Positions 16,233 through 52,920 of a stretch of DNA of 64,000 nt are shown piece after piece. The translations under genes were made by a program, and so were the position numbers. Below the pieces are notes generated by a model that saw only the letters and a program-made list of their open reading frames with translations, was not told the DNA's origin and ran no database searches. The first letter of the stretch is position 1. Every line of letters begins with the position of its first letter. Location of the stretch: contig JAHBXV010000001.1 of NCBI GenBank assembly GCA_019636285.1, forward strand, positions 62,001-126,000. The letters run 5' to 3'. Source of the stretch: Planctomycetaceae bacterium (GTDB lineage Bacteria; Planctomycetota; Planctomycetia; Planctomycetales; Planctomycetaceae).

Positions 16233-16354
16233 GGACCAACATCCTCAACGGCCACGCAGTCGATTGCTTCAGTTCGGCGACATTCTAGCGGCAAGCGGCG
16301 ATTAAGACGCCCTCCGGCAATCCGGCCAATCTGGGAAACGGGAATACCCGCCTC

Positions 16355-16360
16355 TATAAT
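16355..16360 (+). promoter_or_regulatory. Candidate -10 element for ygfZ, suggesting a leaderless transcript
   Basis: A perfect TATAAT lies six bases before the ygfZ ATG. Transcription from it would start at or next to the A of the ATG, giving a leaderless mRNA. The expected -35 position (about 16332-16337) has only a weak match, so this is tentative. Confidence 0.35.
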
Positions 16361-16366
16361 CGCCGC

Positions 16367-17281
16367 ATGCCCACCACGGTGTTTGAACTGACGGACTGGA
16401 CCTGCCTGACGCTGACCGGAGCGGACCGGGCGGCGTTCCTGCACAACTTCTGCACGAACGATATCAAGGGATTGGCTCCCGGACATTGGCGGGAGGCCCT
16501 GTTCTGCAATGTGAAGGGCCGCATCCTCGGTCATGGTCTGGTCTTGGCCGGAACGGATTCGCACACGATTGTCGGCTTTCCGGGACAGGGTGAGCGGCTC
16601 GTCGCGCATCTCGATCGTTACATCCTCCGCGAAGACGTCGCGGTGCGTGATGACTCGGCCGAGAAACGATGCTGGTTCCTTTCCGGCCCCGACGCGGTCG
16701 AGACCGTACTGCAATCCGGGATGTTGCAGGGCGAACCGGTTCCCGGAATTGGCTGTCTGGCGAGTGGCCCGGGAAGAGTGTTCGCGCGTCTCGACTGGTT
16801 CTCGGAACCGGGATTTCTCGCGCTGGAGGAGACGACCGAACCGAAATCGGAGGCGAAGTTCGACGGCGAGCGCGGGACACCCGAGGAATTCGAGTTTCGT
16901 CGCATCGTTGCCGGAATACCGCGGATGGGGGACGATTTGACAGAGGACAATCTGGCCCAGGAGTCAGCCCGAACCGCCACGGCGATCTCTTTCATGAAAG
17001 GCTGCTATCTGGGCCAGGAACCAATCGCCCGGCTCGATGCGCTGGGACACACCAATCGCGAATTGCGGCGGCTGCGCATCGATCCGGCTGAGCCGTCGGC
17101 CTTGAGTGGCAGCGAACTGGTGACCGCGGAAGGACTGGCAGCCGGCCATCTGACATCGACCGCCCCGGCGCCCGACAAAACCCTGTCGGCCGGGCTGGGG
17201 ATGATCCGTACGAAATTTCAGACACCGGGAACCCGCCTCGTCGTCGCCACGACGGGCCAGACCGCCGTTATTCAGGAATAG
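16367..17281 (+). CDS. ygfZ: Folate-binding GcvT-fold protein YgfZ
   Basis: YgfZ proteins bind tetrahydrofolate and help build or repair certain Fe-S cluster enzymes. This 304-residue protein resembles GcvT and carries the family signature KGCYLGQEPIARLDALGH at about 209-226, with the conserved Cys of KGCYxGQE. The N-terminal GADRAAFLHNFCTNDIKGL is also typical. There is no ribosome-binding site before ATG 16367, which fits a leaderless message. It is followed after 69 bases by hisC on the same strand. Confidence 0.88.
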   Translation: MPTTVFELTDWTCLTLTGADRAAFLHNFCTNDIKGLAPGHWREALFCNVKGRILGHGLVLAGTDSHTIVGFPGQGERLVAHLDRYILREDVAVRDDSAEKRCWFLSGPDAVETVLQSGMLQGEPVPGIGCLASGPGRVFARLDWFSEPGFLALEETTEPKSEAKFDGERGTPEEFEFRRIVAGIPRMGDDLTEDNLAQESARTATAISFMKGCYLGQEPIARLDALGHTNRELRRLRIDPAEPSALSGSELVTAEGLAAGHLTSTAPAPDKTLSAGLGMIRTKFQTPGTRLVVATTGQTAVIQE

Positions 17282-17350
17282 TCAATCCGCATTCAGCGAG
17301 TCTTCAACACGAGGGGCCGGCCAGGCGCGCCCCGGAGAACTGGAAACGCA

Positions 17351-18436
17351 ATGAGTTTGTTTCGTCCCGCCATCGAGCGGATGGCTGGTTACACCCCTGG
17401 CGAGCAGCCGCAGGATTCCGGGTGGATCAAGCTGAACACCAATGAGAATCCGTATCCGCCATCTCCCGCAGTCCTGAAGGCCCTGCACGCGACGGTCGAT
17501 TCCGGGCGATTGCACCTGTATCCCGACCCGCTCGCGAAGGCCTTTCGACAGGCGGCCGCCGAGGTATTTCAGGTCGATCCGGACTGGATTCTGCCCGGCA
17601 ACGGCAGCGATGAGGTGCTGACCATCCTCACGCGGACCTTCGTCGATCCTGGCCAATCGACGGTCTATCCGTACCCCAGCTACATCCTTTACGAAACGCT
17701 GGCCGACATTCAGGACGCCGGCAGCACGCGTTGGCTATTGAATCCGGACTGGTCGTTCAACTGGTCGACTGCCGGAAACGTGCTGGAATCGGCAAAACTG
17801 GTCTTCATCCCAAATCCGAATTCTCCGTCGGGAAACCGCTGGAGCGATAGCGACATCCTGCGGGCCATTCCGCCGTCGGGCATGCTGGTTCTGGACGAAG
17901 CCTACGGAGACTTTGCCGATTCACCTCATCGCGGGGAACTGCTGCGGCAGCCGAGGGGCGAGCGGATCGTCATCACGCGGACGTTCAGCAAGAGCTACAG
18001 TCTCGCTGGGATTCGGTTTGGCTTCGCGATTGCTCATCCGGATGTCATCGCGGGGATGCAAAAGGCGAAGGACAGTTACAACTGCGATGCCTTGTCCCTC
18101 GCCGCCGCCACGGCTGCCATGCGCGACCAGAACTGGATGCAGGCGAACGTCGCCAAAATCCGGGCCACGCGCGCGCGACTGGCCGAGAGTCTCACTCAAC
18201 TGGGATTCGCAGTCACGCCAAGCCAGACCAACTTTATCTGGTGCACCTACCCCGGCCGTCCGCATCGAGACTTGTACGATGCGCTCAAGAGCCGGAAGAT
18301 TCTCGTCCGGTACATGAAGTTTCCGGGCGTTGACTGGGCACCCGATGGAATCCTTGATGGACTGCGGATCTCCATCGGCACCGACGACGAAATCAACGGT
18401 CTGCTGACGGCCCTGCGTCACATACTCTCCCAGTGA
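17351..18436 (+). CDS. hisC: Histidinol-phosphate aminotransferase
   Basis: HisC transfers an amino group from glutamate to imidazole-acetol phosphate in histidine synthesis. The 361-residue fold-type I PLP enzyme shows LNTNENPYPPSP (the HisC N-terminal arm), PGNGSDEVL (cofactor phosphate region), FIPNPNSPSG, LDEAYGDF (PLP-ring Asp and Tyr) and TRTFSKSYSLAGIRFG with the Schiff-base Lys. A downstream hisB gene 53 bases away supports the pathway. Confidence 0.95.
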   Translation: MSLFRPAIERMAGYTPGEQPQDSGWIKLNTNENPYPPSPAVLKALHATVDSGRLHLYPDPLAKAFRQAAAEVFQVDPDWILPGNGSDEVLTILTRTFVDPGQSTVYPYPSYILYETLADIQDAGSTRWLLNPDWSFNWSTAGNVLESAKLVFIPNPNSPSGNRWSDSDILRAIPPSGMLVLDEAYGDFADSPHRGELLRQPRGERIVITRTFSKSYSLAGIRFGFAIAHPDVIAGMQKAKDSYNCDALSLAAATAAMRDQNWMQANVAKIRATRARLAESLTQLGFAVTPSQTNFIWCTYPGRPHRDLYDALKSRKILVRYMKFPGVDWAPDGILDGLRISIGTDDEINGLLTALRHILSQ

Positions 18437-22881: not shown

Positions 22882-24078
22882 GTGGCAGGTGTAGCAACGA
22901 TTCACGCTGTCGTTCGAACGGTATGGCGGCACTCCCTGAGCCTTCGAAGGGCGTGCCGAATGAACAACTCCCACGCCCTGCCGCAAAGCCTTCAGGGCGT
23001 GCCACCCCTGCGCATCGTGACGGCCGCGGTGATGCTGCTCGCCTTCGCGGCGTTGCCAGACGCGGCCCAGGCACGGGTACGGCTCGAACACATCTGCACG
23101 ATTCAGGGACAGCAGGAAGTCCGGCTGACCGGTATGGGGCTGGTGGTAGGTTTGCCCGGAACCGGCGACGGGGCCAAGAACGCTTCGACGGTACGGGCTC
23201 TCGCCGCCGCCATGACCAGGCTGCAACACCCGATCACCGAGCAGGAGATCCGCAACGCCGACAACGTCGCGGTGGTGCTGGTGGAAGCCACGATTCCGCG
23301 AACGGGACTGCGTCGCGGCCAGAAGATCGACGGTTTCGTGAGCGCGATCCTGGGAGCGAAGAGCCTCAAAGGGGGTCGGCTGCTGTCGACTCCACTCACC
23401 ACCAACGTGGTCGGCAGTAACGTCGCCGTCGCATTGGCAGGCGGCGCGGTACACGTCGAAGATGCCGCGCGTCCCACCAGCGCGAAAGTGGTCCAGGGTG
23501 TCGATCTGCAGACTGACGTCACGAGCCTGTTCGTCAATCAGCTCAAGGGTGACATCATCACGCTGATGATCGACCCGACGCATGCGAGCTTTTGGACGGC
23601 CAGTGAAGTCGCGCGCGTCATCAACACCGAGTTCTCGTTCGAGTCGGGCGGCAAAGACCTCGCCCGCGCGGTCAGCCCTGCCGCCGTCGAACTGACGCTG
23701 CTGGGCGAGTACCGCGATCGTCCTGTCGAGTTTCTCGCCGAGGTGCTCGAAGTCGGGATCGACATTCCCCAGACCGCGGCGCGGGTTGTTCTCAATAGCC
23801 GAACCGGGACCGTCATCGTGACGGGTGAAGTCGAAATCAGCCCGGTCGTCATCAACCACAAGAGTTTCAGCATTGAAGTGACAGGTGAACCGGTGTCACC
23901 CACGGTCGGCGGCCCCTTTGTCCCGGTGACCGAGGGGGATGGCCGACAGTCTCCCCAGAAATTGCAGCAACTCGTCACCGCGCTCAATCAATTGCGCGTT
24001 CCCACGACCGACATCATCGAGATCATTCGCGAACTGCATGTGAGCGGGAAGCTGCATGCGGAACTGGTGGATCGTTAA
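22882..24078 (+). CDS. flgI: Flagellar P-ring protein FlgI
   Basis: FlgI forms the peptidoglycan-level ring of the rod bushing. The mature part is typical: GMGLVVGLPGTGDGAKN, NVAVVLVEATIP, VNTEFSF, RVVLNSRTGTVIVTGEVEIS and the C-terminal LVTALNQLRVPTTDIIEIIR. GTG 22882 has GGGAAGGAAAC before it; ATG 22960 is the alternative. From the GTG the protein is 398 residues with an unusually long signal region. Codons about 15-43 of that region are supplied by two palindromic repeat units (22926-23010), in frame. The hydrophobic core VTAAVMLLAFAALPDAAQA follows them. Confidence 0.92.
   Translation: MAGVATIHAVVRTVWRHSLSLRRACRMNNSHALPQSLQGVPPLRIVTAAVMLLAFAALPDAAQARVRLEHICTIQGQQEVRLTGMGLVVGLPGTGDGAKNASTVRALAAAMTRLQHPITEQEIRNADNVAVVLVEATIPRTGLRRGQKIDGFVSAILGAKSLKGGRLLSTPLTTNVVGSNVAVALAGGAVHVEDAARPTSAKVVQGVDLQTDVTSLFVNQLKGDIITLMIDPTHASFWTASEVARVINTEFSFESGGKDLARAVSPAAVELTLLGEYRDRPVEFLAEVLEVGIDIPQTAARVVLNSRTGTVIVTGEVEISPVVINHKSFSIEVTGEPVSPTVGGPFVPVTEGDGRQSPQKLQQLVTALNQLRVPTTDIIEIIRELHVSGKLHAELVDR
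22926..23010. repeat. Pair of palindromic repeat units inside the flgI 5' coding region, family B
   Basis: The unit at 22926-22961 (GGCACTCCCTGAGCCTTCGA, then AGGGCGTGCCGAA) nearly matches 36075-36110. A second unit at 22970-23008 carries CCACGCCCTGCCGCAAAGCC and TTCAGGGCGTGCC, again with GGGCGTGCC/GGCACGCCC-type arms. Both can fold into hairpins. They lie wholly within the flgI frame without breaking it. Confidence 0.75.
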
Positions 24079-24082
24079 AGAA

Positions 24083-24105
24083 GCGCTCCGCGTTGCGTCG
24101 CGGCT
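24083..24105. repeat. Dispersed 23-base repeat, family C, copy 1
   Basis: GCGCTCCGCGTTGCGTCGCG followed by GCT, four bases after the flgI stop. It differs at two positions from the identical copies at 49765-49787 and 51682-51704. Confidence 0.7.
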
Positions 24106-24122
24106 AAATTGGGTTCTCACGG

Positions 24123-24569
24123 ATGTCCCTTTCAGCACTTACCAGCACTGCGGCCAATCCGAACAGTTCGCCGGACTCGTTCCAGCGGACGTTTCAGGAG
24201 TCCGTCGGCGGGCTGATTTTTGGCGAGATGCTGAAATCAATGTGGTCGACCGTCGGCGAACCGGCCTATATCCATGGCGGCCAGGCCGAAAAGATGTTTC
24301 GGGCCGAACTCAATCGCGAATTGTCGACGCAGTTCGCGTCGAATCACGGCGGCGAGATGGTGCGCGAGCTCTTCGATCGGTTCGCGGCCGGTGTCAAAGC
24401 CCGGCAGAATCCGCCGGAAGGAATAAGCGGGGGCGCACAAACGTCGCCACTTGTTGGATCAATAGAATCGTTAGAGTCCACCCGACTGCTACAACAGGCA
24501 GAAGCGTCTCAACAAGTTTATCCGGCAGGCATCCCGTCAGAAGTCATGCCCCCACTTTTCCGAAAATGA
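24123..24569 (+). CDS. flgJ: FlgJ-type rod-binding protein, rod domain only
   Basis: The N-terminal domain of FlgJ caps the growing rod. This 148-residue protein has the core FQESVGGLIFGEMLKSMW and GGQAEKMFRAELNRELSTQ (about 22-68) typical of that domain. The muramidase domain found in enterobacterial FlgJ is absent, as in many phyla where the lytic enzyme is separate. The position between flgI and a FlgN-like gene supports the call. The last 45 residues are low-complexity and not recognisable. Confidence 0.8.
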   Translation: MSLSALTSTAANPNSSPDSFQRTFQESVGGLIFGEMLKSMWSTVGEPAYIHGGQAEKMFRAELNRELSTQFASNHGGEMVRELFDRFAAGVKARQNPPEGISGGAQTSPLVGSIESLESTRLLQQAEASQQVYPAGIPSEVMPPLFRK

Positions 24570-24715
24570 CTTCAGGAGATGTCCGAAGACCGTCCGCGTC
24601 GTGCCAGGTGCGCGGCAAATGACGGAATCGGGATAGGCTCTCGCGGCAACGACTTTTGTTGTTCGCGAACCAGTCCATCCGCCAACCAGTGGCGGACTGC
24701 TCGGGGGGGCAGGCC

Positions 24716-25198
24716 ATGGATCAGAAGTGGTGCGAGGAAACGCTGCGTTTCCTGGTCAGTCTGGAAAGCGCGCACGCGGCGCTGGCCGAGGCGATGGACG
24801 CCCAGCGGGTCGCCATTCTCGCGCATGAACCGGACCAGTTGACTCGAGCCATCGAGTCGACTCAGGCATCGGCCGATCAGTTACACGGCCTCAAGCACTG
24901 GCGGTCGCGACTTCTGCTTGCCGCCGGAAGCCCGGTCCCCCAATCGCTGAAGGAGGCGCTCGAAAAGCTGCCGGACGTCGTCCGACGGCGCTTCGACGGT
25001 CCGATTGCCGCGGCGGAACGCCAGATCCACGAATCGCGGCTGTCGGCCTGGGTGGTGTGGATTCTGGGAAACCGCGGCCAGGCGTACTGCGGCGAATACC
25101 TCGATCTTCTAGCCGCGGGCGGCAAACTCGACCCCGGTTATTCGGAACGTCCGCGGCCAATCGGCTCGGGCGGCCTGCTGCTGGATGCCTCGGTCTGA
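24716..25198 (+). CDS. flgN: FlgN-like flagellar export chaperone
   Basis: FlgN proteins are helical cytosolic chaperones that deliver FlgK and FlgL to the export gate. This 160-residue protein is largely helical (CEETLRFLVSLESAHAALAE, IESTQASADQLHGLKHWRSR) and sits directly upstream of flgK and flgL, where FlgN is expected. Sequence similarity by eye is modest, so position carries much of the call. ATG 24716 follows a G-rich stretch (GGGGGGGCAGG); an upstream ATG at 24656 is the longer alternative. Confidence 0.65.
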   Translation: MDQKWCEETLRFLVSLESAHAALAEAMDAQRVAILAHEPDQLTRAIESTQASADQLHGLKHWRSRLLLAAGSPVPQSLKEALEKLPDVVRRRFDGPIAAAERQIHESRLSAWVVWILGNRGQAYCGEYLDLLAAGGKLDPGYSERPRPIGSGGLLLDASV

Positions 25199-42581: not shown

Positions 42582-45500
42582 TCACTCCCTCCCCGGCACC
42601 TTCTTCAGCGTATACGCCGCCGTTGCTGGGTACAGCGCGGTTTCCGCGATTTCGCCGCAGGTGAGTTCGTAGACGTGGCCGGGTTTGAGGCCGTCGACGG
42701 TGAGGTGGACGCGGGTTGTCGTGGCGTCGACGGCGGCCGTGGTGATGGTGGGTGTATGGCGGCCGGAGTCCGGGGTAGCGTAGGAACCCTGCCAGACTCG
42801 CGTGTAGCCGGCCAATTGATAATTCGCCGCGTCACCGCCGCGCTGGCGATCGATGGGTTTCAGGAACTCGATCTCGAAACCTTCTGGGGTGGCGCGGACT
42901 TCGCGAATGCCGTTGGGGAGGTCGCCCTTGCGACGCAGGCGGGTGATGTCCCCTGTATTGAGGCCCCCCTGCCAGCCGGAATCGTAGATGTTGCCGACAT
43001 AGAGATCGCCCTCCGGCGAAATGGCCACGCTGAGCGGGCCAGTCAGGTGTTCGGTCAGGCTGGGTTGGCCGGGCGGACACAACGGATAGACCGCCCCCTG
43101 CAACACGCCGTCCACGACTTGCGTGCTGAAGCGGACGAGGAATCGCGTGTCGTACTCGGCTCCGATGATCTGGCCGCCGAAATCGCGGCTGAGGGGCCAG
43201 TCGCGATCGCGCGGCACGTAACAGATGCCATTCACGCTGCGCGTCCACGGATGCGGAATCTCGACAGCCGCTGACTCGGCTGGCTGATCGGTCTTTTCAT
43301 CCAGTTGAGCGGGAACGCCGTAAGCGCGGCCGGGACGGATGACGTTCAGTTCGTTGAAACAATTCTGCACCCCCTGCTGATCGGTGGTGAAGACATTATC
43401 GTGCTCATCGATCGCCAGGCCGGTCGCGTAACGCAATCCGGAGGCGATGGATTCGATCTGTCCGTTGGGTTCGATCCGCAGCACGCGTCCGCGCCAGCGG
43501 GATTGCGACTTTGGACGATTCTTGTGGGCGTAGTCGCTGCCCAGCGAAATATAATAGCTCCCGGCCCGGTCGCGAACGATGCCGCAGGTCCAGTCGTGAT
43601 AGTCCTCGGTATACCCCCAGCCGCTGGCGAAGACTTCGCGCTTCCGGATGGTGTTCGAGGTTGCCGCGCCGACCAGCCGCAAGACTTCGGGCTTATGAGC
43701 AATTAGAAGATCGTCGCCATCGACCGCGATGCCGAACGGAGCCGCGAGGCCGGTCTCTAAAGGTTCGGCGAGATCGCCGACGCCGTCCTGGTTGGTATCG
43801 CGAACGCGGAAGATCGTCCCTTGCAGCGAAGTGAAAAGAAGTTCTCCGCTCGCGTTCCACGTCATCGCTGTCGGCATGATCTTGGGCGAAAGGGGAAAGC
43901 GAACCCCTTCGAAGCCGGGCACCTGCGTGACGGCGTTCTGCGGAACAGGATCAAACTCCGGCCGCATGAGGGGCGCACGCTGCGGCGTGAGATCGATTGC
44001 ATAGGTGATCGTGAGCGGCTTGTTTGCATCGGCCGGAAAACCATAGAAGCCATCGGCCCCCAACGCCATTGCATCGACCTGAATTCGCGCTGTCGGCAAT
44101 TTGGGTTTCAGCGTCTCACCGAAGAACCATCGGAACAGCACCGTCACGCCGGGGGAGGCATCAATGACCGAAACGCGACGCACGACTTGACCGTTCCGGG
44201 CTTCATCGGTCCAGACTTCGTGAATCGTCGCGCTGGTTTCTTCTTCCTCCGTATTCAGACGGTAAGTCAGTTCGACGGCGTCCGCCGTGATCTGATAGCT
44301 GATGAGTTGACCGCTTGCGACTTCCACTCGCTGCCCGAATAACTGATTGGCGCCCTGCACGTTCAGGACGAATTCGGACGTTGCATCGGGGGCGATCATC
44401 GCGGGAACGCCGGCCATGTCCCAGAACCAGCTCTTGCCGGCCGTACGCTGGCGGGCGAAATCGCCGATCGTCCACGCTCGCACGCCGGGGTGCTCCAAGT
44501 CGAACAGCAGACTCAGGCCATTGCCGAAACCAGCGGCGAATGCATGCGGAATCGTCGAGACCGAGATGCCCTTGGGAGCAGAAAAGACATCGCGCACCAC
44601 GCGCGGCGGCTGTCCGGGCGCGACTGAGACAAACTGCTCGACCACAGCGGGATTAGTCGGCGGCGGGAGATTCGGATCATGCAGGGCATCCCAGATGGCG
44701 GCGAGTTGCCGGGCAAGTTCACCATTCAAAAACGTCGGATGCGGCCGCTGGTATGACGGCATCTCCACGCCGGGCATCACTCGTAACGGAGAGCGCGTCC
44801 AGCGGAAGTAGTACTCGGGCCGCATTCGCGCCCCGAGCAGGAACAAGTCCGAACCGCGTGTTCCCAAAGCCACCTTCTGCGGCTGATACTCTTTGAGTGC
44901 ATGGCAGGCGATGCAACTGAAGCCGGTTCCGCCCAGGAGTTCTCGGCCCGCAAGCTTGACCTGGGGATCGGTCGAGTCGATGGGGTACTTCGGCGTGTCG
45001 GGAGCCTCGGCCGGAATTTGGTCGTGCCCCTGCAACAGTCGAACGAGGGCGGTTTCGTCGTCCGGGGAGTGCTTGTATTTCGGCATGCGAACCCGCAGCC
45101 AGTTCATGCGGGGTTTCTCCGACGCGCCGGCCAGGGCTGTTTTGAGGGCAGAGTCGAGCATGCGATCGCCGACGGCAGTCAGAGCGGGAGGAATCAACTG
45201 CTGAGTCAGTCCTTGCAGCTCCGGTTGCACCTTGGCAATCGTCGCGGCATAGCGGGAGATCCCGCGCTCTCCATCCCGGTCATGGCAGTCCGCACACCCC
45301 TTGCGTTCGAGCAACTGCGTTCCATGAAATTCGGGTGTTTGCACGAGGCGATCGGTCGTCCAGGTCTTGAGGTATGCCGCGATGGCCGCCGCATTCACTT
45401 GAGGAAAGCCCGGTCGACCGGTCTTGGCGTCGGCCCTGGGAGCCAGGCATCCCGACTCCGACGTCAGCCGAGCACGAACGAGCGGGACTGGCTTGTGCGA

Positions 45501-46757
45501 CGATTTCTCAGCGTCGCCCACGCGGTGGCACGCCGTGCAGCGGAAGCGTTCGGCCAGTTGAGCGCCGCGACCTGAATCTCCCCCCGAGCCCGGTTTCCAG
45601 GACGCTTCCTGTGTGTCACCCGTCAGCGCCGCGACGACATCAATGACTTCGGCCTTGGAAAGCGTCATCTGCGGCATGCGGTGCATCGGGTCGAGCGATG
45701 CGGGATCGAGGAGCCAGCTTAATAGCCAGTCAGCGGAGCGCCGCGATCCAATTTCGTTGAGCGAACCTCCCGCATAGGGGCCCGTTTCGCCGACTTCACC
45801 ATGCTGATGGCAGGCGAGGCAGCCGAGTGTCTGAATGAGCAGCAACCCGCTCTCGCGGGACTTGGCGACATCCTTCGCGGGTTTCCAGTCCTGGAGTTTC
45901 GGCGGCTTGGCCGGCTTGTTCCGATCCCGCAGCCAGGCGAGCAGATCGTCCGCGTCGCTGGCAGAAAGTCCGAAGACCGGCATCCGTGAGTCGCCAACTG
46001 TCTCGGCCGTGCGCGTCAGATGGCTTCGCAGCCAGTCGGGATTGGTGCCGAGTCCCACCGCTTGCAGCGAACGCGAGGGGAGCGGTGTCGTGCCATCGTT
46101 GTGACAGGCGGCACAGCGGAAGGCGTCCCATTGCTGTCGACCACGGGCGACGTCGAGTTCCGTTTCGCTGGGATCGCGGAGCAAATGGTGAACGGGGAGC
46201 GGTTCCAGCGGAAACAGATCGGCTGACCAGTAGAGGTGGAACTCGGCCGGTCCACCTGAAGATTCGTAGGAGATTTCGAGGTCGCGCATGCCGAATGAAA
46301 GTGGCGTCGATGGGCCGCTAACCCAGCCGACTGCGTTGCGATCAGCCGAAAGTAACTCCTGGTCTCCCAGACGAACGGTGGCTTTTCCCTTGAGAAACGC
46401 ATGGAAGCGATATGTTCCGGCCTCCTTGAGCAGCAGCCGTCCCGTCCAGCTTGCCTGAAACGGACCAGCCGGGAGCCGGGGGTCGGGCGTGCCGGCTGAC
46501 CAGACAAACGACAAATCAGCGTCGGGTCGTTCGACCGTTCTGGTTTCGCTCGTGTAGACCGCGTTCAACCCGGGCTGCTCTTCGTCGAGAAACGCGTCAT
46601 CGTCCTCTGCCGCGCGGACAGGGTGCGCAAACAGCAGTAACACAAGCGCGAGACAGCGAACTCCCTGACTGTGGAGTGCGTCCACCAGATTGTGAAGATT
46701 ATTTGGGGACAGGCGAAAAAGCGTCTTGGTCAATCGATGGCGGGCAGGCCAGAGCAT
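42582..46757 (-). CDS. Five-haem PA14/beta-propeller secreted protein
   Basis: This 1391-residue secreted protein has a signal sequence (VRCLALVLLLFAHPVRA) and a PA14-like domain at about 60-190 (FQASWTGRLLLKEAGTYRFH), likely for carbohydrate binding. Five c-type haem sites follow: CAACH 215, CLACH 313, CTACH 407, CADCH 488 and CIACH 615. The C-terminal half (about 900-1290) is a sorbosone/glucose-dehydrogenase-like propeller (KIMPTAMTWNASGELLFTSL, LRYATGLAIDEHDNVFTTD). The last 80 residues resemble a fibronectin-like module. Related planctomycete proteins are thought to oxidise sugars and pass electrons to haem, but no member is well characterised. Single large gene, divergent from the NfeD-type protease. 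Confidence 0.85.
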   Translation of the reverse strand: MLWPARHRLTKTLFRLSPNNLHNLVDALHSQGVRCLALVLLLFAHPVRAAEDDDAFLDEEQPGLNAVYTSETRTVERPDADLSFVWSAGTPDPRLPAGPFQASWTGRLLLKEAGTYRFHAFLKGKATVRLGDQELLSADRNAVGWVSGPSTPLSFGMRDLEISYESSGGPAEFHLYWSADLFPLEPLPVHHLLRDPSETELDVARGRQQWDAFRCAACHNDGTTPLPSRSLQAVGLGTNPDWLRSHLTRTAETVGDSRMPVFGLSASDADDLLAWLRDRNKPAKPPKLQDWKPAKDVAKSRESGLLLIQTLGCLACHQHGEVGETGPYAGGSLNEIGSRRSADWLLSWLLDPASLDPMHRMPQMTLSKAEVIDVVAALTGDTQEASWKPGSGGDSGRGAQLAERFRCTACHRVGDAEKSSHKPVPLVRARLTSESGCLAPRADAKTGRPGFPQVNAAAIAAYLKTWTTDRLVQTPEFHGTQLLERKGCADCHDRDGERGISRYAATIAKVQPELQGLTQQLIPPALTAVGDRMLDSALKTALAGASEKPRMNWLRVRMPKYKHSPDDETALVRLLQGHDQIPAEAPDTPKYPIDSTDPQVKLAGRELLGGTGFSCIACHALKEYQPQKVALGTRGSDLFLLGARMRPEYYFRWTRSPLRVMPGVEMPSYQRPHPTFLNGELARQLAAIWDALHDPNLPPPTNPAVVEQFVSVAPGQPPRVVRDVFSAPKGISVSTIPHAFAAGFGNGLSLLFDLEHPGVRAWTIGDFARQRTAGKSWFWDMAGVPAMIAPDATSEFVLNVQGANQLFGQRVEVASGQLISYQITADAVELTYRLNTEEEETSATIHEVWTDEARNGQVVRRVSVIDASPGVTVLFRWFFGETLKPKLPTARIQVDAMALGADGFYGFPADANKPLTITYAIDLTPQRAPLMRPEFDPVPQNAVTQVPGFEGVRFPLSPKIMPTAMTWNASGELLFTSLQGTIFRVRDTNQDGVGDLAEPLETGLAAPFGIAVDGDDLLIAHKPEVLRLVGAATSNTIRKREVFASGWGYTEDYHDWTCGIVRDRAGSYYISLGSDYAHKNRPKSQSRWRGRVLRIEPNGQIESIASGLRYATGLAIDEHDNVFTTDQQGVQNCFNELNVIRPGRAYGVPAQLDEKTDQPAESAAVEIPHPWTRSVNGICYVPRDRDWPLSRDFGGQIIGAEYDTRFLVRFSTQVVDGVLQGAVYPLCPPGQPSLTEHLTGPLSVAISPEGDLYVGNIYDSGWQGGLNTGDITRLRRKGDLPNGIREVRATPEGFEIEFLKPIDRQRGGDAANYQLAGYTRVWQGSYATPDSGRHTPTITTAAVDATTTRVHLTVDGLKPGHVYELTCGEIAETALYPATAAYTLKKVPGRE

Positions 46758-46941: not shown

Positions 46942-46971
46942 TTGACCCTCAAAATTCCGGCGGCGTATAAT
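46942..46971 (+). promoter_or_regulatory. Sigma-70-type promoter for the NfeD-type protease gene
   Basis: TTGACC at 46942-46947 and a perfect TATAAT at 46966-46971 are separated by 18 bases. Transcription would start near 46978, leaving a leader of about 57 bases with AAGGAG before the ATG at 47035. This is the best promoter match I found in the window. Confidence 0.75.
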
Positions 46972-47034
46972 CCAAGGGACCGTGCCCCGCGTTTCCCTTC
47001 GGCCGTTCCCGTCACCGTGAAGGAGTGTTCGCTG

Positions 47035-49293
47035 ATGCGTGACCGAGGAAGTTCGGCCGTTTGTTCGATTTCGTCCAGTATTCCGGCGTGGCTCGTCGCT
47101 CTTACGATCGGCTACGCCGGATCGTGCTCGGCGTTCGCGCAAGATGAGGCGCCTCCCGCGAATGCCCCGGCTCCGGAAGCGCGTCAGCGGTTGATCGGTC
47201 AGTTCATTACCCTTCGCGCCCCGATTGACGACGGTGTCTATGCGCGCGTCGCCAATACGCTCCTCGACCTGCGGACGCGCGCGACCCAGGAAAAGCGCGA
47301 GGCATACCTGGTTCTTTCGATCACTCCCGGTGTCAGCCCCGTCCACCAGGTTCATGGATTGGCGCGGCTGCTTTCGTCGCCCGATAGCCAGGGCGTGAAG
47401 ACGATCGCGTGGGTGCCCGAATCGCTGACGGGTCCGCATGCACTGATCGCGCTGGCTTGCAACGAGATTGTCATGCGTCCGGAAGCGGAGTTGGGCGACT
47501 TGGGCCGCGGCGCGCCGCTGGAGCCGGAAGACGTTCAGTTCGCGCTGGGATTGGCGCAGAAGCGGCACAATCCTCGTTTGAATACGGCCGTGGTTCGGGC
47601 GCTTTTCGACCGCGATACTCAGCTTTGGAGAATTCGCACCAAGGATCAGCGTGACACGGCGGGACAGTTGCGAATCGTCGCGCGCGACGAACTCGATGCG
47701 CTGCGGCAAACAAATGTCGCCATCGAAGCCGCTGAAGTCGTTCGCGAGCGGGGGACGTCGCCGGTCTTCCGCGGCGAAACCGCTCGCAGCCTGGATATCC
47801 TGGTCGCTCATACGGCCGACTCCAAGGGCGATCTGGCCGAAATCTACGGGCTGCCCAGTGAAGCCATGAAAGAGTCGTTCGGCGATCTGGATGGTCGCCG
47901 CGTTCGCCTCATCAAGGTCCAGGGCCCCATCGACACCGTGCTGGAGAACTTCCTGCAGCGACAGATGGATCGCGCGGTCGCCGAAGGCGCGCAGATTCTG
48001 ATTTTCGAGATCGATTCGCCGGGCGGGCTGCTCGTCCAGAGCATGAATCTCGCCCAGGCGATCGCGGCGCTTGACCCCACGCGGGTGCGAACTGTTGCTT
48101 ATGTCCCTTCGATGGCCCTCAGCGGGGCGGCGATTGTCGCGCTCGGATGCGACGAAATCTATCTGCATCCGGACGCGAAGTTCGGCGATGCGGGGGCAAT
48201 CTTCGCGGCCGGTGCCGAGGGGAAGTTCGAACGAGTTCCGGAAAAGCTCCTCAGCCCGATTCGCGTGGGCCTGCAAGGACTGGCGGAAAAGAAGAACCGG
48301 CCCGTCGCCGTGGTCGAAGCGATGGCCGATCGCAAGCTCATCGTCTACCAGGTGACGCATCGCGACAATGGCAACACCTGGTACATGAGCGAAGCCGAAA
48401 TTCATGCCTCCAACGGCGAGTGGATCCAGGGGCCGCAGGTCCGCGAGACCAATGGCGAACTGCTGCTGACGGTCGATGGCCGGCGGGCTCATGAACTGAA
48501 GATTGCTCAGTCGCCCGTCCAGGATGCGGATCAACTGAAGACACGTCTTGGAGTTCCCGAAGCCGTGCGAATTGTCCCCGTCAAACAGACGTGGGTCGAC
48601 GCCATGGTTTTCATCCTCAACTCGCCGGCGGTAACGGTGCTGCTGCTCGTCCTGGGCGTGGCGCTCATTTATCTCGAGCTCCACTTCATGACGGGCCTCT
48701 TGGGCATCGGCGCGGCGCTCTGCTTTTCGCTGTTTTTCTGGAGTCGGTTTCTCGGAGGAACGGCTGGCTGGCTGGAAGTGGTGCTGTTTCTGTTGGGTGT
48801 CGGCTGCCTGGTCCTGGAATTCACCGTCATCCCCGGTTTCGGCGTGTTCGGTATTTCGGGAATCCTGCTGATCCTGGCCTCGCTGGTGATGGCGATTCAG
48901 ACCATCGGAAATCTCGAGCCGTCGTACGACATGCGGCAACTGGCAACGGCACTGATGATGGTGATCGGCGCCCTGCTTGGCGTGATGATCTTCGGACTTA
49001 GCATGAATCAGTTTCTGCCAAGAATGCCGTTCTACAACCTCCTGGTTCTCTCTCCCCCGGAGGCGATGGTCCCCGAAATGTCCGGTGCGAGCGTCCGCGC
49101 GGTCATCGCGGGTGACGATCGCTTGGTGGGACGGCGCGGCAAGACGCTGACTGTGTTGCGCCCCTCGGGAAAACTGGATCTCGATGGCGACGTACTGGAC
49201 GTGCTCTCAGACAGTGGCTACATCGCCGCAGGAGAGGTGGTCGAAGTGATTTCGGCGAAGGGGAATCGCATCGTCGTTCGGCAGACAAGCTGA
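47035..49293 (+). CDS. Membrane NfeD/ClpP-class serine protease with duplicated protease fold
   Basis: This 752-residue protein has a signal peptide (AWLVALTIGYAGSCSAFA) and two ClpP-like domains. The second (about 285-400) is normal: IFEIDSPGG and YVPSMALSGAAIVALGCDEI, with the nucleophile Ser in LSGAA. The first (about 55-165) is a degenerate copy: WVPESLTGPHALIALACNEI, with Thr-Gly where Ser-Gly is expected. Four or five membrane helices follow (AVTVLLLVLGVALIYLEL, VVLFLLGVGCLVLEFTVIPG), then a C-terminal NfeD OB-fold (GRRGKTLTVLRPSGKLDLDG). Family members cleave membrane proteins such as stomatin partners. AAGGAG precedes ATG 47035. Confidence 0.88.
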   Translation: MRDRGSSAVCSISSSIPAWLVALTIGYAGSCSAFAQDEAPPANAPAPEARQRLIGQFITLRAPIDDGVYARVANTLLDLRTRATQEKREAYLVLSITPGVSPVHQVHGLARLLSSPDSQGVKTIAWVPESLTGPHALIALACNEIVMRPEAELGDLGRGAPLEPEDVQFALGLAQKRHNPRLNTAVVRALFDRDTQLWRIRTKDQRDTAGQLRIVARDELDALRQTNVAIEAAEVVRERGTSPVFRGETARSLDILVAHTADSKGDLAEIYGLPSEAMKESFGDLDGRRVRLIKVQGPIDTVLENFLQRQMDRAVAEGAQILIFEIDSPGGLLVQSMNLAQAIAALDPTRVRTVAYVPSMALSGAAIVALGCDEIYLHPDAKFGDAGAIFAAGAEGKFERVPEKLLSPIRVGLQGLAEKKNRPVAVVEAMADRKLIVYQVTHRDNGNTWYMSEAEIHASNGEWIQGPQVRETNGELLLTVDGRRAHELKIAQSPVQDADQLKTRLGVPEAVRIVPVKQTWVDAMVFILNSPAVTVLLLVLGVALIYLELHFMTGLLGIGAALCFSLFFWSRFLGGTAGWLEVVLFLLGVGCLVLEFTVIPGFGVFGISGILLILASLVMAIQTIGNLEPSYDMRQLATALMMVIGALLGVMIFGLSMNQFLPRMPFYNLLVLSPPEAMVPEMSGASVRAVIAGDDRLVGRRGKTLTVLRPSGKLDLDGDVLDVLSDSGYIAAGEVVEVISAKGNRIVVRQTS

Positions 49294-50095: not shown

Positions 50096-50199
50096 TTCAC
50101 TCTCCTCTGTTCAATCCGGGCGTCTCTCCCACGTAGGGTGAATGAGGAAGTACGGCTGTCACCGGACACGACTTTTCCCATTTCTTCAAAGTCCATTCC

Positions 50200-50670
50200 G
50201 TGCTTGAAGATGCATCGAATCAGGAGCTTCTCGCTGCCTGGAAGGAGGGGAACCAGCAAGCCGCGCGAGTGCTCGTGCGACGCTACATGGTGCGTTTGAC
50301 GGCGCTTGCGCGAAGTCGCCTGTCGCGCAGGCTCGCCCGCCGGATCGATCCCGAAGATGTCGTGATGTCAGCCTGGCGCAGCTTCTTCGTCGGGACCAAT
50401 CTTGGGCGTCTCGCGATCGCGAATGACGACAACCCGTGGCCACTTCTGGTCACGATCACGCTACGCAAGCTTGCCAGACAGGCGGAACGGCACTCAGCGG
50501 AACGCCGAAATGCTGGTCAGGATGTCTCGCTTGAAGAAAACGTCGATTGGCAAATGGCGGTCTCGCGCGACCCCTCTCCCGAAGAGGCAGCCATGCTCGT
50601 CGATGAAGTCGAAACTCTGATGGGGCAGTTGGATGATTTCAATCGCGAAGTGCTGACGCGACGGCTCTAG
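50200..50670 (+). CDS. ECF-type sigma factor, truncated by TAG within region 4
   Basis: The 156 residues comprise sigma-70 region 2 (about 8-95: ELLAAWKEGNQQAARVLVRR, RIDPEDVVMSAWRSFFVGT) and the first helix of region 4 (LMGQLDDFNREVLTRRL). The frame then hits TAG at 50668-50670. Beyond the TAG the same frame continues GEEHTAIASAMNCSERTVRR and SIQRIRSTLA, which is the rest of the region 4 helix-turn-helix. In homologous sigma factors the position is usually Gln (RLQG), so a CAG-to-TAG change is likely. As it stands the product lacks the -35-binding helix and should be inactive. The start could be ATG 50287, but this GTG/TTG-type frame start gives a full region 2. The kinase gene continues in the same frame. 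Confidence 0.8.
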   Translation: MLEDASNQELLAAWKEGNQQAARVLVRRYMVRLTALARSRLSRRLARRIDPEDVVMSAWRSFFVGTNLGRLAIANDDNPWPLLVTITLRKLARQAERHSAERRNAGQDVSLEENVDWQMAVSRDPSPEEAAMLVDEVETLMGQLDDFNREVLTRRL

Positions 50671-50700
50671 GGAGAGGAACACACGGCGATCGCGTCGGCC

Positions 50701-51678
50701 ATGAACTGTTCGGAGCGGACCGTCAGACGTTCGATCCAACGGATCCGATCGACTCTCGCCGATCGCGACGTTGACGGCTCGCAAGAGATGAGCCAGCAAC
50801 AGGTTGGGCGAGACAATTCAGGACCGGGAACCCCCGTCACCGCTCCGCGATTGGACCTCCAGCCAAGTTATTCCTATCGCGAGATCACGCTGCAAAAGCT
50901 GATTGGCGAGGGAGGTTTTGGAAAGGTCTACCGCTCCGTCCGCCACTCAGACGGAGCAACGGTTGCGGTCAAGTTTCTCAGAAAACCATTCTGGAAGAAT
51001 CAACGAGCAAGAGACCAGTTGCTGCGTGAAACTCATCTGGTATCAAGTTTGACCCATCCCAACATCGTTCAGCATCGCGGTTGGGGCACCACGCCATTCG
51101 GTGCGTTGTTCGTTGTGATGGACTGGGTCGACGGCCAGACGGCTGGAGCCTGGTTTCAATCAAGCCGCGGTTCCATTCGGGAGATCATTCGCTGTGGAAT
51201 CGCGATGGCGGACGCCCTCAACGCGGCCCACGTGGCCGGGTTGGTCCACGGCGATCTCACGCCAAACAACGTGCTCCGGAGAACGGACGGCACCTTCCTG
51301 CTCACCGACTTCGGATTCGTGAGACTGGTCGGAGACAGCACTACAGAGATGCGGGGCGGCACACCCGGCTACTTGGCCCCCGAACAGCTTTCCGATCTCT
51401 TTGGCCCGATCGGCATTCACACGGATGTCTATGGCCTCGGAGGACTGATCTATTCCCTAGTGACGGGATGCGCGCCAATGACAGGACGCGACGTCCCCGA
51501 GATTCTTGCCAACGTGCTCTCATCCCGGTCGCCGCCGCGCGCCAGCGAACTTTTAGAAGGGGTACCTCAACCGCTGGACGAACTTCTGGCTCGCTGCCTG
51601 CGCAAAGAGCCAGGCGAGCGGCCACAGTCCGTCACGGAAGTCGGTTCCGCGCTATTGGAAATCAATTCGCGAATGTAG
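50701..51678 (+). CDS. Ser/Thr protein kinase, in frame with the preceding sigma factor
   Basis: This Hanks-type kinase has all core motifs: IGEGGFGKVYRS (glycine loop), VAVKFLRK (ATP Lys), HGDLTPNNVL (catalytic loop, HGD instead of HRD), LTDFGFVRL (DFG) and GGTPGYLAPEQ (activation end). The kinase domain spans about residues 65-320 and the protein ends there, with no membrane helix or sensor domain, so it is cytosolic. The first 25 residues from ATG 50701 are the end of sigma region 4; the ATG at 50788 (MSQQQVGRDNSG) would give a clean kinase of 296 residues. The frame is continuous with the sigma factor apart from one TAG. In planctomycetes such kinases are known to be encoded beside ECF sigma factors. 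Confidence 0.88.
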   Translation: MNCSERTVRRSIQRIRSTLADRDVDGSQEMSQQQVGRDNSGPGTPVTAPRLDLQPSYSYREITLQKLIGEGGFGKVYRSVRHSDGATVAVKFLRKPFWKNQRARDQLLRETHLVSSLTHPNIVQHRGWGTTPFGALFVVMDWVDGQTAGAWFQSSRGSIREIIRCGIAMADALNAAHVAGLVHGDLTPNNVLRRTDGTFLLTDFGFVRLVGDSTTEMRGGTPGYLAPEQLSDLFGPIGIHTDVYGLGGLIYSLVTGCAPMTGRDVPEILANVLSSRSPPRASELLEGVPQPLDELLARCLRKEPGERPQSVTEVGSALLEINSRM

Positions 51679-51729: not shown

Positions 51730-52920
51730 TTAGGCGACTTCGACTTCGCGGACCAGGTCCAGACCGTTGAAGGTCGAGGCACTGGCGTTGGTGTAGCTCC
51801 CCATCGTCGGGACGATCAGCAGCTCGCCGATGGCGAGGTCGGGCAGTTCCTGGTCGCGGCAGACGACATCGGTGGAGTCGCAAGTCGGACCGGCGACCAC
51901 GCACGGATACCCGGCCCGGGCATGATGATCTTCGGCCAGGAGCGGAAAGTCCGTGTGGTCGTAAATCTTGCCCGAGAACGAGCCGTAGATTCCGTCGTCG
52001 ATGATGTACTGCGTCGAACCGTTCGGGCGAACCGACTTGCCAATCACCGACGTGATCAGCGTCGCGGTCGTCGCAGACATGACGCGGCCCGGTTCCGCGA
52101 TAATGCGAACCGGCAGATCGCCGAAGTGCTGCTCGAGGGCCTGACGAACCACGTAGCAGTAGACGTCGAGCGACATGACGGCTTCGCGGTACGGAGCCGG
52201 CATCCCGCCGCCGATGTCCAGGACATCCAGCGAGATTCCACAGGCCGCCGCTTCGTCGAAGATGCTGCGAATGGTTCGCAGGGCCGCTTCGTAGTCTTCC
52301 GGAACCAGCGTCTGCGAGCCAACGTGGAACGAAATCCCGTTGACATTCATGCCGAGGTCGCGGGCTTCGCACAGGAGGTCGACCGCTTCGCTGGCGGCAC
52401 AACCGAACTTGGCCGACAGGTTGATCAGGCTGCTCGCCGAGGTGATCGCGACTCGCAGCAGCAGAGTCGCATCGGGAGCGTGTTCCTTCATCTTCTGAAG
52501 TTCGTTCCGGTTGTCGACCACGAACCAGCGGCAACCCGCGTCGTAGCAGGTCTTCAGGTTGGCCATGGTCTTGCACGGATGCGTGTGCAGCATCTGCTCG
52601 GGCTGGAAGCCGGCATCGAGCGCGGCCCGCAGCTCGCCCACCGAGCAGATATCGATCGAACCGCCCAGGTCCCGCAGCGTTCGCAGGATCGTCGGGCTGG
52701 GGTTCGACTTCGCGGCGTAGAACAATTCCACGCCCGGCAGGCCTTCGCGCAGCGCCTCGTAATTGGCGGCGACGGCGGACCGGGAGACGCACATCAGCGG
52801 AGAACCGTACTCAGCCGTCAATTCCCGGGCCTGGTCAAACGAAATGACCGGCTTCGCGGTCCGGTAGGACCAGGCGGGGGTGGAAACGGCTTCGCAACGC
52901 TCGGAAAGAATGGTCGCCAT
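51730..52920 (-). CDS. Fold-type III PLP decarboxylase (ornithine/lysine/diaminopimelate type)
   Basis: This 396-residue alanine-racemase-fold enzyme shows FYAAKSNPSP with the PLP Lys (about 71), HVGSQ (about 199), DIGGGMPAPY, EPGR (276-279, phosphate site) and AGPTCDSTDVV with the catalytic Cys (about 347). The pattern matches eukaryote-like ornithine and lysine/ornithine decarboxylases used in polyamine synthesis more than LysA, which has different substrate motifs. Exact substrate uncertain, so no symbol is assigned. It is convergent with the kinase gene and has a long upstream region. Confidence 0.85.
   Translation of the reverse strand: MATILSERCEAVSTPAWSYRTAKPVISFDQARELTAEYGSPLMCVSRSAVAANYEALREGLPGVELFYAAKSNPSPTILRTLRDLGGSIDICSVGELRAALDAGFQPEQMLHTHPCKTMANLKTCYDAGCRWFVVDNRNELQKMKEHAPDATLLLRVAITSASSLINLSAKFGCAASEAVDLLCEARDLGMNVNGISFHVGSQTLVPEDYEAALRTIRSIFDEAAACGISLDVLDIGGGMPAPYREAVMSLDVYCYVVRQALEQHFGDLPVRIIAEPGRVMSATTATLITSVIGKSVRPNGSTQYIIDDGIYGSFSGKIYDHTDFPLLAEDHHARAGYPCVVAGPTCDSTDVVCRDQELPDLAIGELLIVPTMGSYTNASASTFNGLDLVREVEVA

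Follow-up and report, generated by a model that had tools for sequence, protein, structure and literature searches.

A planctomycete sigma factor-kinase fusion gene with a single in-frame amber codon and a divergent ferredoxin neighbor

What does a single amber codon mean in a reading frame that would otherwise join an ECF sigma factor to a Ser/Thr kinase in one polypeptide? The question is raised by a stretch of 64,000 nucleotides from a Planctomycetaceae bacterium (GenBank assembly GCA_019636285.1, contig JAHBXV010000001.1, positions 62,001 to 126,000 of the forward strand), hereafter the window. An earlier note on this DNA proposed that the frame descends from a covalent sigma-kinase fusion and offered three readings of its TAG: a recent loss, an assembly error or a read-through switch. 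We consider it probable, on comparative sequence grounds, that the sigma-kinase is dedicated to an adjoining ferredoxin promoter and controlled by its kinase through phosphorylation, and that the copy in the window was recently broken or was mis-sequenced.

Translation of frame 1 from 50200 to 51678 on the forward strand bears out the presence of one internal stop, a TAG at codon 157, ahead of the terminal TAG at 51676-51678. With the internal codon read as Gln, the Pfam model PF07638 (Sigma70_ECF) matches residues 9-187 with 60.3 bits (cut-off 21.1) and PF00069 (Pkinase) matches residues 231-476 with 133.8 bits (cut-off 31.7), both in the one frame that spans the TAG. On that reading, the upstream part belongs to Sigma70_ECF by the Pfam cut-off and has regions 2 and 4. 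The same stretch was recovered in the genome-wide ECF search with one TAG inside. Scores for the NCBIfam models TIGR02937 (34.7 bits, cut-off 42.9) and TIGR02984 (39 bits, cut-off 183.75) fall below the curated cut-offs, and the sigma part is thus a divergent ECF factor rather than a member of the named planctomycete subfamily 1. The downstream part is a Hanks-type Ser/Thr kinase by the Pkinase cut-off and by its catalytic Lys, HxD, Asn and DFG Asp. Its nearest solved structure is PknB of M. tuberculosis (sequence E 2.1e-26; fold match 5u94).

An AlphaFold2 model of the read-through product (mean pLDDT 87.5, pTM 0.63) is confident in the sigma 2, sigma 4 and kinase parts, with disordered linkers at residues 103-125 and 193-209 and an uncertain orientation of the domains. 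The linker zone at residues 189-228 is also the part with only 18% identity to the sister sequence. One helix (146-156) stops right before the TAG, and two more (161-167 and 172-193) come after it. Because the TAG directly follows helix 146-156, the upstream product is predicted to end short of helices two and three of the region 4 helix-turn-helix. The Pfam matches and the model agree with the earlier claim that the codon falls after the first region 4 helix, with the remaining helix-turn-helix and a kinase beyond it. The features are collected in Table 1. Flanking genes encode an NfeD-type membrane protein (46942-49293, forward strand) and a pyridoxal-phosphate-dependent decarboxylase of the ornithine/arginine type (51730-52920, reverse strand). 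A 1391-aa protein at 42582-46757 (reverse strand) has several CxxCH heme-binding motifs, seen by eye in the translation.

Table 1. Layout of the sigma-kinase gene and its divergent neighbor, in window positions
Feature	Coordinates	Strand	Remarks
ECF sigma region 2, linker and first helix of the region 4 helix-turn-helix	50200..50667	+	Residues 1-156, GTG start; model helix 146-156
Internal amber TAG	50668..50670	+	Column is Gln in 44/75 fused sequences
Remaining sigma region 4: second helix and recognition helix	50671..50769	+	Residues 158-190; 4/4 columns at least 90% conserved are kept
First in-frame ATG past the TAG	50701..50703	+	Possible internal start, giving a 325-aa kinase-only product
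Variable linker from sigma part to kinase	50770..50883	+	Residues 191-228; pLDDT <50 at residues 193-209
Hanks-type Ser/Thr kinase domain	50884..51657	+	Pfam; Lys258, His350/Asp352/Asn357 and Asp370-Phe-Gly invariant in 75/75 fused and 12/12 two-gene members
Divergent ferredoxin gene, 94 aa	49811..50095	-	Pfam Fer4/Fer4_10 over cut-off; DUF3470 just under cut-off
Promoter-like bipartite motif TGTCCGGTG-N13-CTCATTCAC	50138..50168	-	Points toward the ferredoxin gene, whose ATG is 42 nt further on

Continuous relatives of the frame are common. The closest homologue, in genome G005, has 62% identity and aligns over residues 3-489 with no stop, which argues that the continuity of the window frame across the TAG is more than chance. 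In a search of 59 related genomes, the top matches from genomes other than that of the window have at most 62% identity, are near full length and are free of stops. The continuous homologues of about 490 residues that the earlier note had suggested looking for are therefore the usual state in the closest relatives. In the window's own family, 52 of 170 genomes match the sigma-kinase at E<=1e-60, and a class-wide search of 397 genomes returned many further sigma-kinases among the matches listed. The contig scan covered, among the matches listed, at least 80 loci, including a fused one in Roseimaritima sediminicola (L021; Planctomycetia) and a two-gene pair with no ferredoxin (L075). Six of 294 genomes drawn from the phylum match at E<=1e-85, all six belonging to the window's family, and at this threshold the 294 genomes yielded no sigma-kinase fusion outside the class.

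The fused set was fixed at 75 sequences; L204, a fused locus found later, was left out. Set aside were L203 (at a contig edge), L179, L180 and L182 (kinase-only matches), and L169 and L170, which have a kinase without the sigma part. In L169 (G269) and L170 (G182) the kinase gene immediately abuts the divergent ferredoxin gene, of which L169 has only a truncated form; the sigma part may have been lost through either natural deletion or misassembly. Sigma regions 2 and 4 and the kinase stand in one open frame in 72 of the 75 fused sequences, and the exceptions are the window copy and those of G064 and G079. The window copy would join the 72 only if its TAG were read as a residue. Gln is the majority state at the TAG column (CAG 32, CAA 12). 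Otherwise the column holds Ala in 10 sequences, Glu in 8, Arg in 7, residues seen once each in five more and the TAG in the window copy, and the earlier description of the position as normally Gln holds for a majority only. In G064 (L136, G064:C13:364729-370102), codon 207 of the match, which lies at the kinase start, has independently become an in-frame TAG; the four genus-mates of G064 encode Gln there (CAG or CAA). G079 (L158, G079:C1:1077573-1082889) has a frameshift in sigma region 2 near bases 1990-2010, which puts residues up to about 44 of the model in another frame. With two kinds of change, these three broken copies among 75 look like ordinary loss or error.

An old pseudogene would be expected to have decayed, and we rejected this explanation on branch lengths and conserved columns. 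In trees of 13 sequences, the window branch measured 0.19 against 0.31 for the sister sequence (L002) before the TAG and 0.40 against 0.49 after it, and in a kinase-only tree 0.28 against 0.35. Highly conserved columns are kept in the window copy at 18/18, 2/2, 4/4 and 31/32 in successive regions, the last count referring to the kinase and being the same in the sister. The 37 kinase matches of the window genome are all free of stops within the kinase domain, and the sigma-kinase is the only one of its 16 ECF matches with an internal stop; similarly, only the sigma-kinase is interrupted among the 39 kinase matches of G064. Two other candidates for in-frame stops in the window (16289-18436 and 24044-25198) were dismissed after translation, as they seem to be neighboring genes or chance frames.

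The absence of rate acceleration after the TAG, the failure to find an amber-suppressor tRNA and the use of TAG to close other frames make a recent mutation or an assembly error the most likely origin of the codon. Among the readings offered earlier, recent loss and assembly error thus fit best. The real gene may also be intact, with the stop arising from a sequencing or assembly error or from a minority variant of the assembled population. A one-base difference from the common codon would suffice, no decay is seen anywhere in the gene, and the ferredoxin promoter motif is kept. The assembly is nevertheless good judging by its figures (113 contigs, 99.77% complete, 0.77% contaminated), and all 37 kinase matches and the other 15 ECF matches are free of internal stops. 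We regard an intact gene as a serious but somewhat unlikely explanation.

A divergent ferredoxin gene accompanies the sigma-kinase at most loci. Of the 75 fused loci, 71 have a divergent homologue upstream, 91-264 nt away from where the aligned coding region begins, and such a homologue also stands upstream at 10 of the 12 loci with separate sigma and kinase genes. The other four fused loci have no ferredoxin in the sequence examined; the two remaining two-gene loci are L171, with only about 220 nt covered upstream, and L178, which has a weak sigma match. The ferredoxin at the locus is a second copy in the window genome, the other being at G000:C28:41095-41358. At least one ferredoxin match occurs in 162 of 170 genomes. 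The 52 genomes with a sigma-kinase include 50 that have two or more matches, versus 17 of the 118 without; the Fisher value for this comparison overstates independence, since the 170 genomes are related. Six of these 17 genomes have a sigma-kinase member under the cut-off, leaving 11 without a known sigma-kinase.

The shared intergenic region holds a candidate promoter. We analyzed 82 intergenic regions (72 fused and 10 two-gene, some near-identical). The commonest pair of spaced words occurred in 21 regions versus at most 5 in shuffles. The fitted matrix, in the direction of the ferredoxin gene, reads TGTCCGGTC-N13-(C/T)GCATTCAC; it was seeded by eye from the same 82 regions. With training and testing on the same regions, 55 of 82 exceeded the 1% shuffled threshold, 49 of them at N13. 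Five-fold cross-validation with fixed spacing passed 53 of the 82 held-out regions when the ferredoxin strand was scored and one of the 82 for the opposite strand, leaving 29 regions where the motif is weak or missing. A model trained on the 72 fused regions passed 9 of the 10 two-gene regions. The window copy has both the ferredoxin neighbor and the motif (TGTCCG-N16-GCATT), which is intact save one base of the -10-like part. We suggest that TGTCCG-N16-GCATT is probably the promoter recognized by the sigma factor, with TGTCCG as the -35 and GCATT as the -10 element.

The motif is specific to the ferredoxin copy that adjoins the sigma-kinase. Among 42 ferredoxin copies elsewhere, four passed at other spacings and none at N13, in contrast to 14 of 17 sigma-kinase-linked copies, 12 at N13, all of which were in the training set. 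A strict pattern found 15 sites in eight genomes, one at the locus in each of the eight and seven elsewhere, against one site for the reversed pattern. The linkage might still be mere conserved gene order, with the motif serving another regulator and the sigma-kinase acting elsewhere. Such an explanation would sit well with lineages that keep both genes and have a weak or absent motif, as in members of genus g49 that retain the ferredoxin and have no clear motif (L012, L132, L136, L142 and L147), and the strict pattern may miss targets of the sigma factor. However, the motif is laid out like a sigma promoter, is directed at the ferredoxin gene and occurs with both fused and two-gene partners. 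It is absent at this spacing above the 42 other copies, and the second ferredoxin copy tracks the sigma-kinase over the 170 genomes. We therefore judge conserved gene order by itself to be an unlikely account and retain the ferredoxin promoter as the probable target.

Twelve loci encode the sigma factor and the kinase as separate genes in a row. Three were examined over their full length; in each, the sigma gene encodes a whole sigma factor ahead of its stop, and the stand-alone kinases of L013 and L014 have a long N-terminal stretch without a Pfam match that is lacking in fused forms. A FastTree phylogeny built from the 75 fused and the 12 two-gene members has both states interleaved, with six parsimony changes under midpoint rooting, some of which rest on weakly supported nodes. 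The fused L115 and the two-gene L183, both of genus g24, are sisters with a support of 0.999. From such interleaving, joining and separation of sigma factor and kinase seem to have happened repeatedly. The earlier idea of an ancestral covalent fusion stands insofar as the continuous polypeptide is usual in the closest relatives, and close relatives are not always split into two frames with a complete sigma factor. The 12 interleaved loci do not fit simply one old fusion, though.

The interleaved history also invites the idea that the window gene is in the act of splitting, with the TAG yielding two working proteins as in the two-gene relatives. A whole kinase domain does lie past the TAG and has an ATG at its disposal. 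Yet the two-gene relatives have a complete sigma factor, whereas the stop in the window falls inside the helix-turn-helix and removes the second and recognition helices, and no well-spaced ribosome-binding site was seen by eye before that ATG. A two-protein split at the TAG was rejected on these grounds as highly improbable.

Under read-through, the TAG would be recoded (to Gln, for instance), part of the product would be full length and the stop would tune the output. The substitution pattern is that of protein-coding sequence on both sides of the TAG in the window genome as well as in G064, whose independent TAG also replaces a Gln of its genus-mates, and other stops are missing from the 37 Pkinase and 15 other ECF matches of the window genome and the other 38 Pkinase matches of G064. 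No tRNA with a CTA anticodon was found by ARAGORN among 56 tRNA matches of the window genome, though (the tRNAs of G064 were read in part; the first tRNA look scored 150 of 158 candidates). TAG is also an ordinary stop here: of the 48 long frames in the window it ends eight, and two of these eight belong to the sigma-kinase gene. The two TAGs stand at different places, in sigma region 4 and at the kinase start, and G079 is broken by a frameshift instead. Two cases in 75, set against none in about 90 other genes, are no notable excess. Suppressor tRNAs, TAG usage and in-frame stops in kinase and ECF genes all fail to provide positive support for the read-through switch. The codon can be accounted for without it, and we rejected it as very unlikely. 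The tRNA survey also revealed dense tRNA arrays with 14 genes in 3.1 kb (L288, G000:C78:1-3100) and 18 genes in 7.3 kb (L299, G064:C6:653300-660600); many of these have weak tRNA scores, and the arrays are perhaps mobile elements.

With a recent loss or an error as the preferred reading of the TAG, a mechanism can be proposed for the intact family. The planctomycete sigma-kinase would consist of an ECF sigma factor, a flexible linker and a soluble Hanks-type Ser/Thr kinase, produced as one polypeptide in most members found and from two adjacent genes in others. The sigma part would recognize the motif in the shared intergenic region and transcribe the ferredoxin gene. The tethered kinase may phosphorylate the sigma part in cis and thereby control its activity, with the redox or iron state perhaps as the input signal. 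In the window genome, the fusion would have been broken by a recent CAG/CAA-to-TAG change, or only appears so through a sequencing or assembly error. A truncated sigma product would lack the recognition helix, and a protein with the kinase alone could come only from weak internal initiation.

The residues of the sigma part constrain how phosphorylation could act. The acidic region 2.2 motif is kept as DPED in the window copy, and among the 75 fused members Asp50 is present in 67, Glu or Asp52 in 72 and Asp53 in 70. With DPED in place there is no missing charge for the kinase to supply, in contrast to EcfP of Vibrio, and activation of the EcfP type was rejected. The family likewise falls outside ECF43 (the EcfP/PknT type), in which DAED is lost and replaced by a phosphorylated Thr. 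One turn beyond DPED, Ser57 is Ser in 75/75 fused and 12/12 two-gene members. Of 12 further ECF factors of the window genome that were aligned, two have this Ser as well, which makes Ser57 a candidate phosphosite that is invariant in the sigma-kinase family without being unique to it. Of the 15 other ECF matches in the window genome, eight have a kinase match no more than 3 kb away, judged by coordinates. Pairing of sigma factors with kinases is thus common there, and the fusion is the special feature.

More tentatively, as an idea somewhat less likely than not, we picture the intact relatives as a self-contained soluble device in which a sensor kinase, its phosphorylation target and promoter recognition act in cis on essentially one inherited ferredoxin promoter. 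Its halves would have been repeatedly joined and separated, and the window copy would be a natural nonsense mutant. Kinase-controlled ECF factors have been described chiefly as two-protein systems, and few examples have been worked out. The fused form, together with a single adjoining candidate promoter, makes the mechanism directly testable with one protein, one promoter and a kinase-dead mutant. The output appears to be an iron-sulfur electron carrier and hence provides a lead on the signal read by planctomycete kinases. The amber codon, for its part, is unlikely to matter in general.

Neither a sigma-kinase fusion nor its ferredoxin partner is described in the literature searched; supplements and the main ECF classification lay outside that search, so both may have been published, and domain databases may already list the architecture. 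With this caution, ECF factors beside kinases and ECF factors with C-terminal extensions are known, and the fused kinase and the ferredoxin partner appear to be new. The occurrence of ECF factors next to Ser/Thr kinases in planctomycetes, which the earlier note had mentioned, is established (PMC8999054). Table 2 of that paper places ECF59, ECF61, ECF62 and ECF217 of planctomycetes next to Ser/Thr kinases, with regulation by phosphorylation proposed. These groups share with the window's family the phylum, the kinase partner and the lack of an anti-sigma factor. As described there, they differ in having sigma factor and kinase as neighboring genes, whereas those of the window's family are fused. 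Planctomycete ECF domains combined with repeat domains, as well as 307 kinase architectures, are mentioned in PMC11032199.

The ECF43 kinase pairs are a close precedent, and like the window's family they genetically pair an ECF sigma factor with a Hanks-type Ser/Thr kinase. In section 3.4 of PMC8999054, phosphorylation is the activating step of EcfP/PknT in Vibrio parahaemolyticus, and EcfP is missing the acidic DAED motif; EcfK/PknS of Xanthomonas citri is another phosphorylation-activated pair (PMC13147305). The Vibrio precedent invoked earlier is therefore real, but its phosphorylation mechanism does not transfer to a family that retains DPED. As these sources present them, ECF43 pairs are separate proteins, with PknS described as transmembrane and the sigma factor without DAED, whereas the window's family forms one polypeptide with DPED kept in most members. 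PknB of M. tuberculosis, the nearest kinase structure, matches through chains that are kinase domains only, with no sigma factor. ECF factors with a regulator fused at the C-terminus, including the anti-sigma-like ECF52/53, are treated in section 3.5 of PMC8999054 and resemble the window's family in this respect. The extensions described in that section are binding, interaction or membrane domains, whereas the extension of the window's family is an intact protein kinase domain.
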